Below are positions 2,149-18,062 of a stretch of DNA of 64,000 nt, one piece after another (position 1 is the stretch's first letter; each line of letters opens with the position of its first letter). Source of the DNA: Planctomycetales bacterium (GTDB lineage: Bacteria > Planctomycetota > Planctomycetia > Isosphaerales > Isosphaeraceae). Position numbers and translations under genes: made by a program. Location of the stretch: NCBI GenBank assembly GCA_027459775.1, contig DAIDHE010000093.1:1-64000 (forward strand), written 5' to 3'. Below the pieces are notes generated by a model that ran no database searches, was not told the origin of the DNA, and saw only the letters and a list, made by a program, of their open reading frames with translations.

Positions 2149-4581
2149 ATGAAATCACCGCTATCCACAATCGCCGTGCTGCTCGTGGTCGGGGCCAGCG
2201 CACGAGCGAGCGACGCCCCTCGACCGCCTGCGCAGGTGCTCATTCTGGCGAGCGATTTTCCGCGTTTGGATCAGGGGGTCGATCTCGGCGTCCAGGGCGA
2301 GGCGACTTTTCAGGCCTGGACCGCGGCGGGAGACGACTGGCGTCTCACCGAGCACGACGGGCGGATCGTGCTCCATCGCACGGCTCGCTCTCAGGAAACA
2401 TCGCCACGCTGGACGAATCTCGGCAAGGTCGCGCTCAAGCCCGGCCGGGAGACCAAGATCACGATCGACGCCAGCCCAGCGGCCGCGGACGCCAAGACCG
2501 CCAAGACAAAGAGCACACGGGGCGCGAAGCCGGTGGTCGAACACGCGCCGGCCGCCCCCGCCCTCTTGTGGATGGATACCGAAGGCAAAGCCCCCCCCAC
2601 GCTCGACATCATCCGCGGCAGGATCGACGACGCATCGCCGACCCCGGATCTCAGGCGCACGACCGTACGGACCAACTACGACGGGATCGGGTTTCAGGCG
2701 CCGGCAACCGCCGAACAATGGCGCGACCGGGCCGCTCATTTGCGCGATCAGTTAAGCATCACGCTGGGCCTCTGGCCCGGTTTCCCCCGGACGCCCCTCC
2801 ATCCCATGATCCACGGCAAGCTCGACCGCGGCGATTACACGATCGAGAAGGTCGTGCTCGAGACGCTGCCGGGCTTCACACTGAGCGGAAACCTCTACCG
2901 GCCCGCGCACGCCGCCGGCAAGCGCCCCGCCGTCCTCTGCCCCCACGGCCACTGGGAAGACGGCCGGATGAATCCCGAAGTCCAGATGCGCTGTATCCGG
3001 CTGGCCAAGCTCGGCTGCGTCGTCTTCATGTATGACATGGTCGGCTACAACGACAGCAAGCCGTTCCCGCATGAATTCTTGAACGACCATTTGCGGCAAT
3101 TCGGCCTCAGCCTGCCCACGCTCCAGACCTGGAACAGCCTGCGCGCGGTCGACTGGATCTCGGCCCTGCCCGACGTCGACCCCGCCCGGATCGGCTGTAC
3201 CGGCGAGTCGGGGGGGGGAACGCAGACGTTTCTCCTGACGGCCCTCGACCCTCGGATCGCGGTGTCCGCGCCCATTGTGATGGTGTCCGATACGTTTCAG
3301 GGGGGCTGCGTGTGTGAAAACGCGGCGGGCCTGCGGATCGGTACCGACAATGTCGAAATCGCCGCCTTGACGGCTCCACGCCCGCTCATGATGGTGGGGG
3401 CGTCGGGCGACTGGACGGCGAAGACCATGGACCGGGCGTATCCCGCGATTCGCGGCGTCTACACGCTCGTCGGTTCGACCGGCCGTGTGTCCGCCCGCGT
3501 CTTTGACTTTCCCCACAACTACAACCAGACCAGTCGCAACGCCGTCTATCCGTTCCTGGCGCGGTGGCTTTTGGGCGTGACCGATGACTCCACGACCCGC
3601 GAGGGCGCTCAGCGGCCCGAGACGGCCGCCGAGCTGTCGACGTGGGACTCTGGCCATCCTCGGCCCAGCGATCGGAAGACGCCCGAGCAGCTCGAGGCGT
3701 ACCTGACCGATGAGATCCAAAAAGGGGTGGACGCGCTCGGTCCTCACGACGCCCCACAGTGGACGGCCGCTCGGCAAATGCTACAGACAATGCTGAGGGT
3801 TCGCGTGGGTCTCTTGAATCCGACTCCCGAACAGCTCACCGTCTCAAGGATTCGGGTGGTGGCGCGCGAGGACGCGGCCATCGAGCATCTCGTGGTCGGC
3901 CGCAGGGGCGTGGGCGACGCGGTTCCGATCGTGCGGATCACCCCTCGGCGCTCCGCCAACCGATCGACGGTGATCGCGAGCGCCCGCGGCAAGGCCGCCC
4001 TCGTGGATGCGACCGGAGAGCCCACGCCGCTTGTGCGCGAGCTCCTCAAGCAGGGCAATTCCGTGGTTGGGTTCGACCCGCTCTTCGTCGGCGAGGCGCT
4101 CGACCCTCGGAATCCCTCGCACAAGCGCCCGAGCGCGGTCCATTTCGAGACCTACAATCCCGCGAGTGCGGCCGACCAGCTCCAGGACCTGGCAACCGCG
4201 ACCTCATGGGCCCAGGCCCAGCCCGACGCGCGCTCGGTGAGCCTGATCGCGCTCGACGACGGTGGAGCGCAAGCGCTCCTGGCCCTGCCCTTGCTCGAAA
4301 ACGTCGCGCGGGCTTGCATCGTCCTCGCGCCACGGCCTGATCCCATGGCAAAAGGCCCCGCCGCACTCTCGGTCGACCTGCCGGGCCTGGCTCAGTTCGG
4401 CGGCTGGAAGTCCGCGGCCGCCCTCGCCGCACCCACGCCGCTTTGGGTCGCGGGCCATGGCCTCGACGCATCATGGTCCAAGAGAGCCTACACGCTCGCG
4501 GGCGCGAGCCACGTCCTCAAGATCGACGACGACCAGCCCGAGCCCGACCGCCTCGCGCGCTGGATCGCACTCGGCGAGTGA
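2149..4581 (+). CDS. Secreted alpha/beta-hydrolase, acetyl-xylan-esterase-like
   Basis: An 810-aa exported protein with a hydrophobic signal sequence at the N-terminus (MKSPLSTIAVLLVVGAS then ARA). The central part is an alpha/beta-hydrolase: RPAVLCPHGHW forms the strand and oxyanion region, and GESGGG with Ser354 is the nucleophile elbow, followed by APRPLMMVGASGDWT and a late HNYNQ that may supply the histidine. Planctomycetes carry many such hydrolases annotated as acetyl xylan esterase or dienelactone-hydrolase-like. The N-terminal ~190 residues and the C-terminal ~250 residues are additional domains not recognised here. The start at 2149 was chosen because the signal peptide begins there; the longer frame overlaps the phosphatase gene. 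The polysaccharide-ester substrate is inference. Confidence 0.8.
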   Translation: MKSPLSTIAVLLVVGASARASDAPRPPAQVLILASDFPRLDQGVDLGVQGEATFQAWTAAGDDWRLTEHDGRIVLHRTARSQETSPRWTNLGKVALKPGRETKITIDASPAAADAKTAKTKSTRGAKPVVEHAPAAPALLWMDTEGKAPPTLDIIRGRIDDASPTPDLRRTTVRTNYDGIGFQAPATAEQWRDRAAHLRDQLSITLGLWPGFPRTPLHPMIHGKLDRGDYTIEKVVLETLPGFTLSGNLYRPAHAAGKRPAVLCPHGHWEDGRMNPEVQMRCIRLAKLGCVVFMYDMVGYNDSKPFPHEFLNDHLRQFGLSLPTLQTWNSLRAVDWISALPDVDPARIGCTGESGGGTQTFLLTALDPRIAVSAPIVMVSDTFQGGCVCENAAGLRIGTDNVEIAALTAPRPLMMVGASGDWTAKTMDRAYPAIRGVYTLVGSTGRVSARVFDFPHNYNQTSRNAVYPFLARWLLGVTDDSTTREGAQRPETAAELSTWDSGHPRPSDRKTPEQLEAYLTDEIQKGVDALGPHDAPQWTAARQMLQTMLRVRVGLLNPTPEQLTVSRIRVVAREDAAIEHLVVGRRGVGDAVPIVRITPRRSANRSTVIASARGKAALVDATGEPTPLVRELLKQGNSVVGFDPLFVGEALDPRNPSHKRPSAVHFETYNPASAADQLQDLATATSWAQAQPDARSVSLIALDDGGAQALLALPLLENVARACIVLAPRPDPMAKGPAALSVDLPGLAQFGGWKSAAALAAPTPLWVAGHGLDASWSKRAYTLAGASHVLKIDDDQPEPDRLARWIALGE

Positions 4582-4592
4582 AGAACGCGTCC

Positions 4593-5255
4593 TCAGAGCG
4601 CCCCTTGCCGCTCAAGCCTCTTATAATGCATGTAGGAATAAACAATCGGCGTGATCAGGCCCACGACCAGCACCGCGATCGGCACAAGAATCGTCACGCC
4701 CAGGAGCAACAAAACCAAACCCAGCACGCTCGCGCCAGCCCAGACCCACGACGTCAGCCGATGGGTATCGGTCCAGACCCGATCGCTCGCCAGCGTCCAC
4801 GGCACGCGCACCCCGACGTAGAAATTCTTGTGGACCCCACGCAGGAATACGCCCATGAGCCCGAAGAACGGAAACATCCCCGCCAGCAATAGCCGCCCTA
4901 GATCAATTCCCGGTCGACCCGTGACGCTGTACCAGGTCGCGTAAAGAATCACGGTATGCACATAAGACATCAGGCCGAGCACGATCACCATCAATAGGGC
5001 CAGGGTCGGCCGCGATCCGTCGATCTCGAATCCCTTGGGCGAAAGTGCCGGCAAAGCCGCGAACAACCCGATGATTCCCACGACCACGATCGGCATGAGG
5101 GCGAGCGTGATCCACTTGCTTCCGTAGCCGTCGACCTCGTTGTGGATGTTCCAGTGGATCGGCACGCGATCGGGAAGAATCCCAAACCCCCAGGCGGAAA
5201 TCGCGATATCGCCGAGCGCTACCAACACGGCGACAACCCAGCATGCGCGGATCAT
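4593..5255 (-). CDS. SdpI/DUF1648-family membrane protein
   Basis: A 220-aa polytopic membrane protein. The segment ILPDRVPIHWNIHNEVDGYG matches the DUF1648 signature (P, IP.HWN, G..DG), and the C-terminal third, with FYVGVRVPWTLASDR and TSWVWAG, matches the SdpI domain. About six hydrophobic segments are visible. SdpI in Bacillus is an immunity and signalling protein for the SdpC toxin; in other phyla the role is unknown and no SdpC-like gene is seen nearby. The start ATG at 5255 follows a GGAG-type ribosome site about eight bases upstream, so the longer reading frame is not used. It converges on the esterase gene, 11 bases away. Confidence 0.8.
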   Translation of the reverse strand: MIRACWVVAVLVALGDIAISAWGFGILPDRVPIHWNIHNEVDGYGSKWITLALMPIVVVGIIGLFAALPALSPKGFEIDGSRPTLALLMVIVLGLMSYVHTVILYATWYSVTGRPGIDLGRLLLAGMFPFFGLMGVFLRGVHKNFYVGVRVPWTLASDRVWTDTHRLTSWVWAGASVLGLVLLLLGVTILVPIAVLVVGLITPIVYSYMHYKRLERQGAL

Positions 5256-12258: not shown

Positions 12259-15200
12259 TCACCCCTTCGGCCGCGGCGTGCCTGGCCGACGGCGTACGTC
12301 CCAGACGATGGCTGTTCCTCGGTGGAATCCGGCGAGGAGCTTGGTGCCGTCCGGCGAGAACGCCAACACGACGGCGCGGTCGTCGCGGGGCTCGAGTGTG
12401 AGCAGCGGCTCGCCCGTGGCGACGTCGTAGAGCCGGATCTTGTCCTCGCTCAATGGCTCCAGGTAGTGCCGGACGGACGTCGCCAGAGTGTTTCCGTCGG
12501 GTGAGACCGCCAAGAAACAGCCATCGCCGTGGGGATGCTGAATGGTGCGCCGCAGTGCGCCCGTCTCGACATCCCAGAGGGAGACGGCCTTCGCGGCGAA
12601 CGACGCCAGCACGCGGCCGCCGTCGCTGAACGCGGCGTCGTGGAACAATTGCACGAGGACGCCTCGCCGGGCGGGCTTTTGCTGGTCTCGTGGGCGCCAG
12701 TCGAACCTGGACCGGCGCAACTCACCGCCCGTGATCGCGTTCAGCCGGATGACTTCGCCGTTCCCCTGGGCCAGCTCAATCGAGGCCGAATTGGGTCGGA
12801 ACTTCATCCAGCGCAGGTCCAACCAGCCTCCTTTTTCACCGTCGGGGGGTGAGCTCCAGTGGGTCCGACCGGTGCCAACCTCGATTCCCCGAAGCTGTAT
12901 CACCAATCGAGATCCGGAAAGAGGGGAGGCGACGACGAGGATCCGGCCATCAGGCGAAAGCGCCGCCTGGGTGATCTCCGGTTGATCAACCTCGCGCACC
13001 AAGATTCCGCCGGTTGCCTCGTAAACCGCGATCCTGCCACGGCGCTCCGCCCCGCCCGCCGCGACGACGAATCGGTCGTCGCTGGAAAACCCCACAAAGT
13101 TAGGAGCGAGGACGCTGTTGAACGAAACGCTGTTCAAGCTCATGGGCTTATGCCATGTCCGCTTGCCGCTCGCGACCTCCCACACCCGGACGCCCCCGTC
13201 TCGATACCCGAGGACGACTCGGCGACCGTCTGACGACCAGGCGGCCGAGGTCGGCTCGCCCCTCGGCATGCCCTCTTCGTCGTGCAGCCGACGACCGGTT
13301 TTCAAGTCGTGGATGGCGACGGTCCCACCGATCGCGTGGGCGACGACGGAGCCGTCCGGGGAAAAGGCCGGGCGGGCGCCACCGGAACCCGGCGACTCGA
13401 TCATCCGCTCGACTCGCCCGGTCGTGGCGTCGAGGATCCGCAGCGAGCCGATATCGGCCACGGCCACACGCCGGCCGTCATGCGACAAGGCCGCATATCC
13501 GAGTCCCTGACAATCCTCGCCGCCGAGAACCTTGACCCGCTCGCCGCTCTCGAGGTTCCAGAGTCGAACCTCGGACAACGTCACGCTGGCCACATTCTTC
13601 GGGAGTCCCGCGAGGCTCGTCAGGTTGACCGGCACGGTGCAATCACCAGCCGAGAGGATCAGTCGACCGTCCGACGTCACCGCCAGGGAGTTGATGCTAG
13701 GATTCGAGGCGCCCTGGCGGTCGCTATGGGCCCGCTCGATTCGATGGAGAAGCTGGCCGTCCTCGATCCGCCAGATGGAGATCGTGGTGGCGGAGCCGAC
13801 GACCAGCCTGCGCCCCTCGGGCGTGAACGTCACGCGTTCAGCGCTCTCCGAGCCCGGCTGTGGGCCGGGGAGTGGACCCAATCCGCCCGCAAGCCTGTTC
13901 GGCCGGCCCGTCGCGCTCCAGGGCGCCCTCAGATCCCGAAACGGTTCCCTGGGTCGATCAATGCGCCGTAGGCGCGCCCAACCGTCGATGCTGGCCGTCG
14001 CCACCTGGAGCCCATCGGGCGAGAAGGCCACGTCATTGACCGTGCCAGTGTAGGCGGCCAGGTCGACGATCACGTTGTCGACCAGTCCCCCTCCTCCATG
14101 GATCCGCTCCCGGAAGAGCAACCGATCGCCAGTCAGATCCCAGAGCCCGACTTGCCCGTTCGTCTCGCCCCAGAGGAGCCTCGTGCCATCGGGCGAGAAC
14201 GTGAGACACTGGACCGAACCCGGCGGCTCGACCGCCGGCGCGAGCAGCCTCTTCAGCCGTCCTGATCGGACGTCAAAGATGGAGATGCGGGGGAACTCGC
14301 TGTTGGACTCGGCGGCGGCGATCAACCGGCCGCCGGGGACGAACCTGAGATCCGTGATCTCACTCCGCGTCCTGAGCTCAGCAGCCCCGAGCTGTACCAA
14401 AGCACGAGTCGGCAGAGGCGACCCGTCTCCTGGAGCGTTCGCCTCAACGCCCCGACCACCGACCGCCATCCGGGAGGCCTCAACCTTCTGGATCCTGATG
14501 GCGGCCGGACCCAGGACCACGATGGCGACCGCGATCGGGAAGGCGCATCGCCAGACCGAAGCATGCGTGGGCTCGGTCAGAAGTCGCTGGATCCGCTCGA
14601 ACAGGCGGCCCGCCCGCGCGGCCTGCACGACGGCGATGCGCTCCCGAGGGACGGAGGCCAGCCGCATCAGGGTTTCCGCGAACGCCGACGGATCGCCGGG
14701 CATCGCGGCCAGATCACAGGCGAATTCAGATTGAGCCTCGAATCGCGCCACCGCCCACCAGGCCAGCGGGTTGAACCACTGAACCACCCCTAGGCCCCGC
14801 GCCAGAAGCGTCGTCCACAGGTCTCCGCGCCGGTAGTGCGCCAGCTCGTGCCGCATGATCGAGCCGCGCTCGGCGGGCGCCAGGCAGGTCCAGCACGGCT
14901 CGGGTACGACCAGGCAATAACCAGAGGGCAGCCGGCACAAGGCCGGTCCCGCGTCCCGACTCACGAACAGCGAGATCGACGCCCCGACAGCCTGCTCGTC
15001 GAGGATCCGCCGCCATTCGGCTTGCCATTCCACAGGCGCCGATCGAGCCCGCCGAATACGGCCTACGAACGAACCATAGCGCAGAGCGCCGACCCCAAGC
15101 AGCGCCGCGACGCCAGCAAGCCAGCAGCTCAGCACCGCGACCGACCAAGTAAATCCAAGGGCCTCCGCCCCGGGGTCGGGCGCTGACGACTCGCTCGCGG

Positions 15201-15543
15201 GCGAGACGACGACCTCAACGTCGAGAGCCGGTCCGCGACCGACCTCGCCGCCCGCCATCCCGCGCCCGGACTCAGCCGTCGTGCGGAGCAGGTCGAGCGC
15301 GATCGCGCCAGCCGGCTCGCGCCCCGACGACACGCCGGGCGCTCCAGAATCTTGACGGATCGGGATGGGCAAGGGCGCCATTACCACTCCTTGCAAGAGG
15401 ACGAGCAGCCACGCCCACTGCTCGGCCCGCGGCGCGCGCAGCCGCGTCAGCCGCACGCTCGCCCCGACCAATAGCGCCGCGACCGACAGCCCCAGCGAAG
15501 CACGCAAGAGCCCGACAACGACCCACTCCACGGCCTGAGTCAT
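12259..15543 (-). CDS. BlaR1-type M56 membrane metallopeptidase fused to WD40 repeats
   Basis: A 1094-aa fusion. The N-terminal ~340 residues resemble BlaR1/MecR1: hydrophobic segments near 7-30, 42-60 and 132-155, then the M56 zinc motif HELAH (232-236) and FACDLAA further on, with a last membrane segment near 330-350. From about residue 375 to the end there are some 13 repeats with SPDG-type turns and W-D/LWD ends (for example FSPDGTRLLWG, FSPDGTKLLAG), enough for two seven-bladed beta-propellers. In classical BlaR1 the outer part is a penicillin-binding sensor; here a propeller replaces it, so the sensed signal probably differs. Its ATG overlaps the stop codon of the upstream BlaI-like gene, which implies translational coupling and a shared pathway. 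Confidence 0.88.
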   Translation of the reverse strand: MTQAVEWVVVGLLRASLGLSVAALLVGASVRLTRLRAPRAEQWAWLLVLLQGVVMAPLPIPIRQDSGAPGVSSGREPAGAIALDLLRTTAESGRGMAGGEVGRGPALDVEVVVSPASESSAPDPGAEALGFTWSVAVLSCWLAGVAALLGVGALRYGSFVGRIRRARSAPVEWQAEWRRILDEQAVGASISLFVSRDAGPALCRLPSGYCLVVPEPCWTCLAPAERGSIMRHELAHYRRGDLWTTLLARGLGVVQWFNPLAWWAVARFEAQSEFACDLAAMPGDPSAFAETLMRLASVPRERIAVVQAARAGRLFERIQRLLTEPTHASVWRCAFPIAVAIVVLGPAAIRIQKVEASRMAVGGRGVEANAPGDGSPLPTRALVQLGAAELRTRSEITDLRFVPGGRLIAAAESNSEFPRISIFDVRSGRLKRLLAPAVEPPGSVQCLTFSPDGTRLLWGETNGQVGLWDLTGDRLLFRERIHGGGGLVDNVIVDLAAYTGTVNDVAFSPDGLQVATASIDGWARLRRIDRPREPFRDLRAPWSATGRPNRLAGGLGPLPGPQPGSESAERVTFTPEGRRLVVGSATTISIWRIEDGQLLHRIERAHSDRQGASNPSINSLAVTSDGRLILSAGDCTVPVNLTSLAGLPKNVASVTLSEVRLWNLESGERVKVLGGEDCQGLGYAALSHDGRRVAVADIGSLRILDATTGRVERMIESPGSGGARPAFSPDGSVVAHAIGGTVAIHDLKTGRRLHDEEGMPRGEPTSAAWSSDGRRVVLGYRDGGVRVWEVASGKRTWHKPMSLNSVSFNSVLAPNFVGFSSDDRFVVAAGGAERRGRIAVYEATGGILVREVDQPEITQAALSPDGRILVVASPLSGSRLVIQLRGIEVGTGRTHWSSPPDGEKGGWLDLRWMKFRPNSASIELAQGNGEVIRLNAITGGELRRSRFDWRPRDQQKPARRGVLVQLFHDAAFSDGGRVLASFAAKAVSLWDVETGALRRTIQHPHGDGCFLAVSPDGNTLATSVRHYLEPLSEDKIRLYDVATGEPLLTLEPRDDRAVVLAFSPDGTKLLAGFHRGTAIVWDVRRRPGTPRPKG

Positions 15544-15953
15544 GGCTTCCTCCTCGAGATCCTCGCGGACTCCGACCTCTGCTGGGCCTGCTCCAGCAAC
15601 TCCCTGAGCCGGACGATCTGCTCCTCGGTCAACGTCCGATCGCCGAGCAGCCGGGCGACGAGCGGGACCACGTCGCCTCGGCCGAGCTTGGCGACAAGCT
15701 CGCGGAGGTGGCCAATCGTCACCTGCTCGCGCGACACCGCCGCGCCATAGCGAGCCGGGCGGTCCGCCGAGCGGACGACAAGCCCCTTCTCGGCCAAGCG
15801 GTTCAGCCGGGTCTGCATCGTGGGATAGCTCACCGGCGCGCCGTACGCCCCAAAGGCTTCGTGGGCCTCACGGATCGTGAGCGGCCCCCGGGCCCATAGC
15901 ATCCCAAGGATTTCCAGCTCTCCCGCGGCCACCCGAATCGCTCGACGGCCCAT
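15540..15953 (-). CDS. BlaI/MecI-family transcriptional repressor
   Basis: A 137-aa winged-helix protein. GELEILGMLWARGPLTIREA and PVSYPTMQTRLNRLAEKGLV match the BlaI/MecI (PF03965) DNA-binding domain, in which the Y.T.......L..KG..... segment is the recognition helix and wing. The C-terminal helices would dimerise and carry the cleavage site used by the partner peptidase. It overlaps the BlaR1-WD40 gene by an ATGA junction. The expected scheme is repression of this operon until the M56 protein signals cleavage of the repressor. ATG at 15953 is preferred because a GAGGA sequence lies at proper distance; a second ATG six bases upstream is too close to it. No beta-lactamase gene is nearby. Confidence 0.9.
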   Translation of the reverse strand: MGRRAIRVAAGELEILGMLWARGPLTIREAHEAFGAYGAPVSYPTMQTRLNRLAEKGLVVRSADRPARYGAAVSREQVTIGHLRELVAKLGRGDVVPLVARLLGDRTLTEEQIVRLRELLEQAQQRSESARISRRKP

Positions 15954-15978
15954 CACCATTCCTCGCTCGACCACACTT

Positions 15979-15992
15979 ATGACACAAGTCAT
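15979..15992. promoter_or_regulatory. Palindrome ATGAC-N4-GTCAT, candidate BlaI operator
   Basis: A perfect inverted repeat, ATGAC-acaa-GTCAT, lies 26 bases upstream of the blaI-like start codon. BlaI/MecI regulators are known to bind short dyads in their own promoters (classically with TACA/TGTA half-sites), and this dyad sits where an operator would be. The half-site differs from the staphylococcal one, so binding is inference. It would also overlap any promoter of this operon. Confidence 0.4.
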
Positions 15993-16085
15993 GAACACGA
16001 TCCTATCGGCCTCGTCCTCGGATCGCAAGCCTCACGCCCCAAGGACGAGGGCCGTGGCCGACGGAGCGGAAAGAACCCGGGACCT

Positions 16086-17618: not shown

Positions 17619-18062
17619 CTATCTCCAGATCTGATCGCGCTCGTGCTCGGGAAGGTCGCGAAGCGGAGTGTCGAGGATGTGCTCGCGACCGTAAACAAGC
17701 TGGTTGAAAATCTCATAGGAAAGCGCCGTCTCGAAACGGATGCGAATCTTGAGACCGCCAAGAAACGCGCGGCGGGCGGCGACGACCCTTCCTTCGATCC
17801 ACTCGTCCTCGGCCATTCCGGCGGGGCGCAGCCAGATCGGTTGGTCGGCGCCCGGCGCCCGACGGCCTACCGTCCCGATCTGGCAACCGTTCATCGAGAG
17901 GTCGACCAGTTCGCAGGTCAGCGACACAAACGATTGGCCCTCCCACCAACCCACTCGGGCCCGCGGAATCTTGACGATGTAACGGCAGACTCGACGTCGT
18001 TCGCCGGCGGCGCGATAAGCGGTCACGATCTGGGATGCAAGTAGATTCCATGCGGCGTTCAT
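17619..18062 (-). CDS. PilZ-like domain protein
   Basis: A 147-aa soluble protein. An Arg-rich stretch (AGERRRVCRYIVKIPRARV) is followed by a beta-strand pattern and ELVDLSMNGCQIG, which fits the PilZ D/N-x-S-x-x-G motif; RxxxR plus this motif binds cyclic di-GMP in PilZ domains. The remainder (WIEGRVVAARR, GLKIRIRFE) continues the barrel. Binding of cyclic di-GMP is inference, because the first motif is only approximate. It stands between the permease and FabF-like genes on the same strand, with over 100 bases on either side. Confidence 0.6.
   Translation of the reverse strand: MNAAWNLLASQIVTAYRAAGERRRVCRYIVKIPRARVGWWEGQSFVSLTCELVDLSMNGCQIGTVGRRAPGADQPIWLRPAGMAEDEWIEGRVVAARRAFLGGLKIRIRFETALSYEIFNQLVYGREHILDTPLRDLPEHERDQIWR

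Follow-up and report, generated by a model that had tools for sequence, protein, structure and literature searches.

A probable BlaR1/BlaI-type signalling pair with a WD40 propeller as its predicted outer domain in a planctomycete

The closest described relatives of the gene pair analyzed here are the BlaR1/MecR1–BlaI/MecI systems of Staphylococcus and Bacillus, in which the gene for a BlaI-type repressor adjoins that for an M56 membrane protease with an HExxH...E motif and a four-helix plan. Autoregulation is normal in BlaR1 systems, and the staphylococcal box is close to the TACAnnTGTA class of operators. The ten-base TACAnnTGTA operator is named for the related CopR–CopY family (PMC7253601), and BlaR1 has been described as an Nout–Cout protein with both ends outside, in which transmembrane helix 4 leads into an extracellular sensor that protrudes from the outer face (PMC9834060). 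Here, we describe a locus in a 64,000-nucleotide stretch of DNA from a Planctomycetales bacterium of the Isosphaeraceae (contig DAIDHE010000093.1, hereafter the window) that shares with these systems the adjacent repressor, the protease plan, and a predicted operator palindrome of a class close to TACAnnTGTA, but has a region of 14 WD40 blades where the class-D-like penicillin sensor sits in BlaR1 and MecR1. From sequence comparisons and structural models we consider it reasonably probable that this pair is a BlaR1/BlaI-type signalling system with the 14-blade WD40 propeller as its outer domain.

The pair lies on the minus strand at positions 12259–15953. The blaI-like repressor gene (15540–15953, 137 amino acids [aa]) encodes a winged helix of the Penicillinase_R family (Pfam PF03965, E value 2.3e-19, 70.3 bits where 22.6 is the cut-off), and its relatives in the PDB include 2g9w (E 5.2e-7) and the penicillinase repressor 1sd4 (E 1.9e-4). 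The second gene (12259–15543, 1094 aa) is a single uninterrupted open reading frame (ORF) whose start shares a common ATGA with the stop of the repressor gene. Within this one frame, Pfam places Peptidase_M56 at aa 13–318 (E 9.3e-20) and also detects WD40 (PF00400, E 4.9e-29, 99.9 bits against a cut-off of 27). When the frame was split, residues 1–356 matched M56 alone (E 2.8e-21), and residues 381–1094 matched WD40 together with other propeller families (36 families, PF00400 at E 1.6e-31). No penicillin-binding (transpeptidase or class-D-like) domain was detected in the protein by Pfam, for the propeller half among the 25 of 36 rows listed, and the score with the NCBIfam BlaR1 model NF000326 is only 35 bits, where the cut-off is 400; because the penicillin sensor is lacking, we do not file the protein as BlaR1. 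An earlier note, made from the letters of the window, had proposed a BlaI/BlaR1-like pair at these positions, with genes overlapping by ATGA and a protease without penicillin sensor, and the domain and fold matches bear out each of these points. A two-gene reading of M56 and propeller was ruled out by the single frame.

The N-terminal half (14476–15543, aa 1–356) has four hydrophobic segments predicted to form helices near aa 8–26, 44–62, 135–153, and 333–351. It carries HELAH at aa 232–236, with E273 in the position of the third ligand and D277 also present, and H232, E233, H236, E273, and D277 are invariant in all 22 aligned members of its subfamily. The only PDB sequences hit by a profile of these 22 members are two of Staphylococcus aureus BlaR1 (8exs, E 1.8e-13; 8exp, E 1.1e-12), and the alignment pairs HELAH with the HEYAH of BlaR1, and E273 and D277 with an E and a D of BlaR1. 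An AlphaFold2 model of residues 1–380 reached a mean predicted local distance difference test (pLDDT) score of 78.6 with a core above 90, and the six top rows of a Foldseek search with it are all BlaR1. By profile and predicted fold, the M56 zinc protease is intact, and this half of the protein is tied to BlaR1.

Charges flanking the predicted helices are consistent with the orientation of BlaR1. The loop at 31–43, with four basic residues and one acidic, fits the inside and that at 63–131, with five basic and ten acidic, fits the outside, and the Arg-rich segments fall on what in BlaR1 is the cytoplasmic side. The propeller comes after transmembrane helix 4, that is, in the position of the penicillin sensor in BlaR1. 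Because hydropathy and charges agree with the Nout–Cout topology of BlaR1, we infer that the propeller lies outside the cytoplasm, on the periplasmic side, a question that the earlier note had left to topology prediction. A short VRVELVAQE-like segment follows helix 4 in many of the planctomycete subfamily members at loci L128–L152, whatever their ectodomain; the strict motif occurs in 12 of the 22 aligned members, and the segment is a possible coupling element.

The WD40 region (12286–14403, minus strand, aa 381–1086) was delimited from Pfam, model strands, and structural matches, all of which show the repeats and propeller strands of a WD40 repeat protein. About 13 repeats had been proposed to follow the membrane part; the repeats do follow it, but their number comes to 14 blades when counted from the strand elements of the model. 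This whole-protein model, built from three sequences, has a mean pLDDT of 54.8, yet it is good over most of residues 381–1086. Its top Foldseek rows are multi-blade WD40 proteins with good E values and low template modelling (TM) scores of 0.15–0.22, and a VIA-align comparison with ODA16 gave a Z of 38.9 over 338 residues with a root-mean-square deviation of 2.5, spanning both the first and the last blades. Aip1 (1nr0, tandem seven-blade) and the repetitive propeller 2ymu are among the best matches; unlike the window protein, neither is joined to a membrane protease, and the low whole-model TM-scores do not define an arrangement of the 14 blades in rings.

Relatives were collected by a scan of genome contigs; of the 481 loci that it confirmed, the 80 best were retained. 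The top two, from Aeoliella straminimaris (L126) and a Planctomycetales metagenome-assembled genome (L127), are both full-length M56–WD40 proteins with 35% and 42% identity over the full length, and each has a Penicillinase_R gene directly upstream, so that gene order and propeller are both kept. Among the three proteins, identities are 33, 42, and 40% in the propeller and 36, 40, and 38% in the M56 part; because these values are alike, both halves are about equally constrained. When 397 genomes of the class were searched, three were set apart at 594–622 bits with the next at 248; they are the genome of the window and two whose ORFs are as long as those of L126 and L127, and the search model had been built from these same three. 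A comparison of ORF translations by eye revealed no neighbouring genes common to the three loci.

More widely in this planctomycete subfamily, a BlaI ORF, recognized by motif, lies directly upstream in 27 of 27 loci (L126–L152). Members L128–L152 resemble the window pair in protease subfamily, gene order, operator class, and promoter layout, but they carry ectodomains other than WD40. Pfam analysis of 7 of these 25 loci found Poly_export in L128, L143, and L150 (with PDZ additionally in L128), HEAT in L129, a squalene-hopene-cyclase-like domain in L135, and OmpH in L138, and for L152 no match apart from M56, the ectodomain there being unassigned. Mapping the architecture across planctomycetes, as had been suggested for the fusion, therefore yields two full-length orthologues and a series of other combinations, and as judged from sequence the same M56 protease chassis bears many different ectodomains in planctomycetes. 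A separate locus, L056 (G006:C427, about 3804–4880), has a close relative of the window BlaI and of its promoter with two operator-like sites; its M56 gene is truncated near residue 142 and lacks a propeller, and it is either a relic or an assembly break.

Four further WD40–M56 proteins were found in the window's family (L087, L088, L089, and L090), each with a Penicillinase_R gene upstream. The last of these (L090:2570–7234) is an open frame of 1555 aa from a related genome and a separate M56 lineage, with a stretch beyond the propeller that looks thioredoxin-like by eye. At least four WD motifs are present in 7 of the 140 M56-like ORFs seen, a fraction that is no unbiased frequency because the loci were chosen by similarity and short flanks show the ectodomain only in part; the motif used for this screen missed HELIH (L013, which has no WD motifs when viewed separately). 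In a quick tree of 137 M56 core rows, supported by the Shimodaira–Hasegawa-like approximate likelihood ratio test (SH-aLRT) only, the window protein groups with L126 and L127 (86, not a starred branch) within a set of 37 rows (98), L087–L089 make up a clade of their own (100), and L090 is placed elsewhere. Three or more changes are needed to account for the starred branches, and on this topology WD40 appears to have become fused to M56 on at least three occasions, although the three changes could also reflect one gain and subsequent losses.

Upstream of the repressor gene, a sigma-70-like promoter can be read from the sequence on the minus strand at 16000–16028 (TTGCGA at 16023–16028, 17 bases, TAGGAT at 16000–16005). 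It is followed by the perfect palindrome ATGACTTGTGTCAT (15979–15992, minus strand), which ends 25 bases upstream of the BlaI start codon and which we predict, from the pattern in related promoters, to be the BlaI operator; a GAGGA at 15960–15964 lies six bases upstream of the ATG. The pattern AYKACNNNNGTMRT is fully matched in 25 of 31 subfamily promoters where shuffles average 0.09, a count that is partly fitted because the pattern was widened after some promoters had been viewed, and at 9 or more of 10 positions it is found in 29 of the 31 (shuffles, 1.74); L142 was excluded from the set, its contig beginning within BlaI. By eye, the usual layout in the subfamily is one palindrome between −35 and −10 and another near the start, of which the window promoter keeps only the second.

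In a genome-wide view, only the promoter of the operon itself has a conspicuous operator. In the window's own genome ATGACNNNNGTCAT occurs at four places, the other three of which appear to lie within or across ORFs, and AYKACNNNNGTMRTA occurs at four places versus seven for a reversed-pattern control, that is, at chance level away from the own promoter. An Aeoliella-like genome (G572) has two operator sites, both at its own promoter; G549 and G436 were also searched, the former being uninformative as its own operators do not fit the pattern. Because the operator is conspicuous at no other promoter, the predicted circuit appears largely self-regulating, with weaker-site targets possible. One of the three other ATGACNNNNGTCAT sites, a perfect one at G000:C192:6851–6864 (L124), lies about 90 bases before a gene that by eye is apolipoprotein N-acyltransferase-like; it may be a chance occurrence or a further target of BlaI.

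Given these features, we propose that BlaI dimers would occupy the palindrome at about the transcription start and repress the operon, and that the periplasmic-side propeller would bind a ligand or partner, shifting helix 4 and the M56 domain. M56 would then cleave BlaI in the cytoplasm, and the derepressed operon would make more receptor. With the operon's own promoter as the sole clear target of the operator search, such a loop would be mainly self-regulating. The signal would thus come in by way of the propeller, as the earlier note had put it. Several points weigh against this proposal. The whole-protein model is weak, with the M56 part below a pLDDT of 50, and gives no placement of the propeller on the protease; the topology is a prediction, and four basic residues come after helix 4. 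Besides the fitting of the operator pattern noted above, the L150 and L152 promoters lack a match even when one of the 10 positions may differ, and other targets of BlaI may exist in a genome that is 89.7% complete.

A broader and less probable view is that BlaI–M56 serves Planctomycetes as a general-purpose receptor frame, a single membrane protease into which outer domains of different kinds (propellers, export-type, chaperone-like, HEAT, cyclase-like) can be plugged. Each pair would have an operator of its own and act chiefly on itself, which would make the outer domain both the sensor and the regulated product of an insulated feedback loop. Likewise less probable than the receptor reading is that the ectodomain is the product rather than mainly the sensor, in which case BlaI and M56 would form a closed loop that sets the amount of membrane-anchored propeller by reading the propeller's own state (free, bound, or misfolded), and the OmpH, Poly_export, thioredoxin-like, and HEAT relatives would be the same loop with other products. 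The restriction of a conspicuous operator to the own promoter, in both the own genome and G572, the differing neighbours of the three orthologous loci, and the often effector-like nature of the attached domains would all fit such a loop, but BlaI may have weaker targets that a strict search of an incomplete genome would miss, and autoregulation alone is also normal for BlaR1 systems. It is improbable that M56 is a mere membrane anchor for a WD40 scaffold and no longer a regulatory protease, with the adjacent BlaI a relic: the G006 locus, where a close BlaI relative is kept beside a truncated M56, could be read in this way, but the invariance of HELAH, E273, and D277 in 22 of 22 members and the conservation of operator and BlaI argue against it.

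The remaining question is whether the proposed BlaR1/BlaI-type system responds to antibiotics. The window's own genome has 12 M56 and 13 BlaI matches, with a BlaI match upstream of 11 of the 12 M56 by position and the twelfth M56 being the second member of a tandem. Only the window's M56 copy was seen to have WD motifs, and two paralogous BlaI–M56 pairs have different palindromes. At L020, two M56 open frames of more than 1200 aa stand in tandem behind one BlaI match. No PF00905 transpeptidase match was found in this genome, the control being positive in 10 of 14 genomes, and penicillin sensing is unlikely because no transpeptidase-fold protein was detected. No beta-lactamase, as had been noted, and no PBP2a is among the neighbouring genes identified beside the pair; the one class-A-like beta-lactamase gene of the genome lies on another contig of 3.9 kb, on which no operator-like site was found at 9 or more of 10 positions, although weaker sites or other enzymes may exist. 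The notion of a propeller that detects damage to the cell wall and has a beta-lactamase under its control, as the likeness to BlaR1/BlaI and the presence of that gene might suggest, is therefore very doubtful in view of the missing transpeptidase match, penicillin-binding domain, and operator-like site. A non-antibiotic system, as first supposed, is thus the likelier case; the accompanying idea that a sensor was replaced by the propeller holds insofar as the outer domain differs from that of BlaR1, but no sign was seen that an ancestor had a penicillin sensor.

The neighbouring genes identified encode a ZIP transporter, a pterin dehydratase, a DUF433 protein, and an amino-acid permease. A 147-aa ORF on the minus strand at 17619–18062 is PilZ-like by eye, with no Pfam match at E 0.01.

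In planctomycetes, WD40 domains are known from extracytoplasmic function (ECF) sigma factors and from Ser/Thr kinases (PMC8567305; PMC5587647). As in those proteins, the window fusion joins a propeller to a signalling module in the same phylum, but the module is a predicted repressor-cutting protease rather than a sigma factor or kinase. No paper on an M56–WD40 fusion was among those listed for the open-access literature (PubMed Central, titles and starts of abstracts), and "M56" and "BlaR" are absent from the main text of the WD40 survey (PMC5587647). Next to kinases and sigma factors, M56/BlaI would be the third kind of signalling partner of WD40 in this phylum, and its natural ectodomain swaps offer a way to test how outer domains control the protease. 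BlaR1 is known as an antibiotic-resistance sensor, and here the same protease–repressor pair bears an outer domain of a kind other than the penicillin-binding one. With no transpeptidase detected in the genome and with such varied outer domains among the relatives, our findings suggest that the BlaR1 mechanism is a general route by which outside signals reach DNA through direct cleavage of a repressor.

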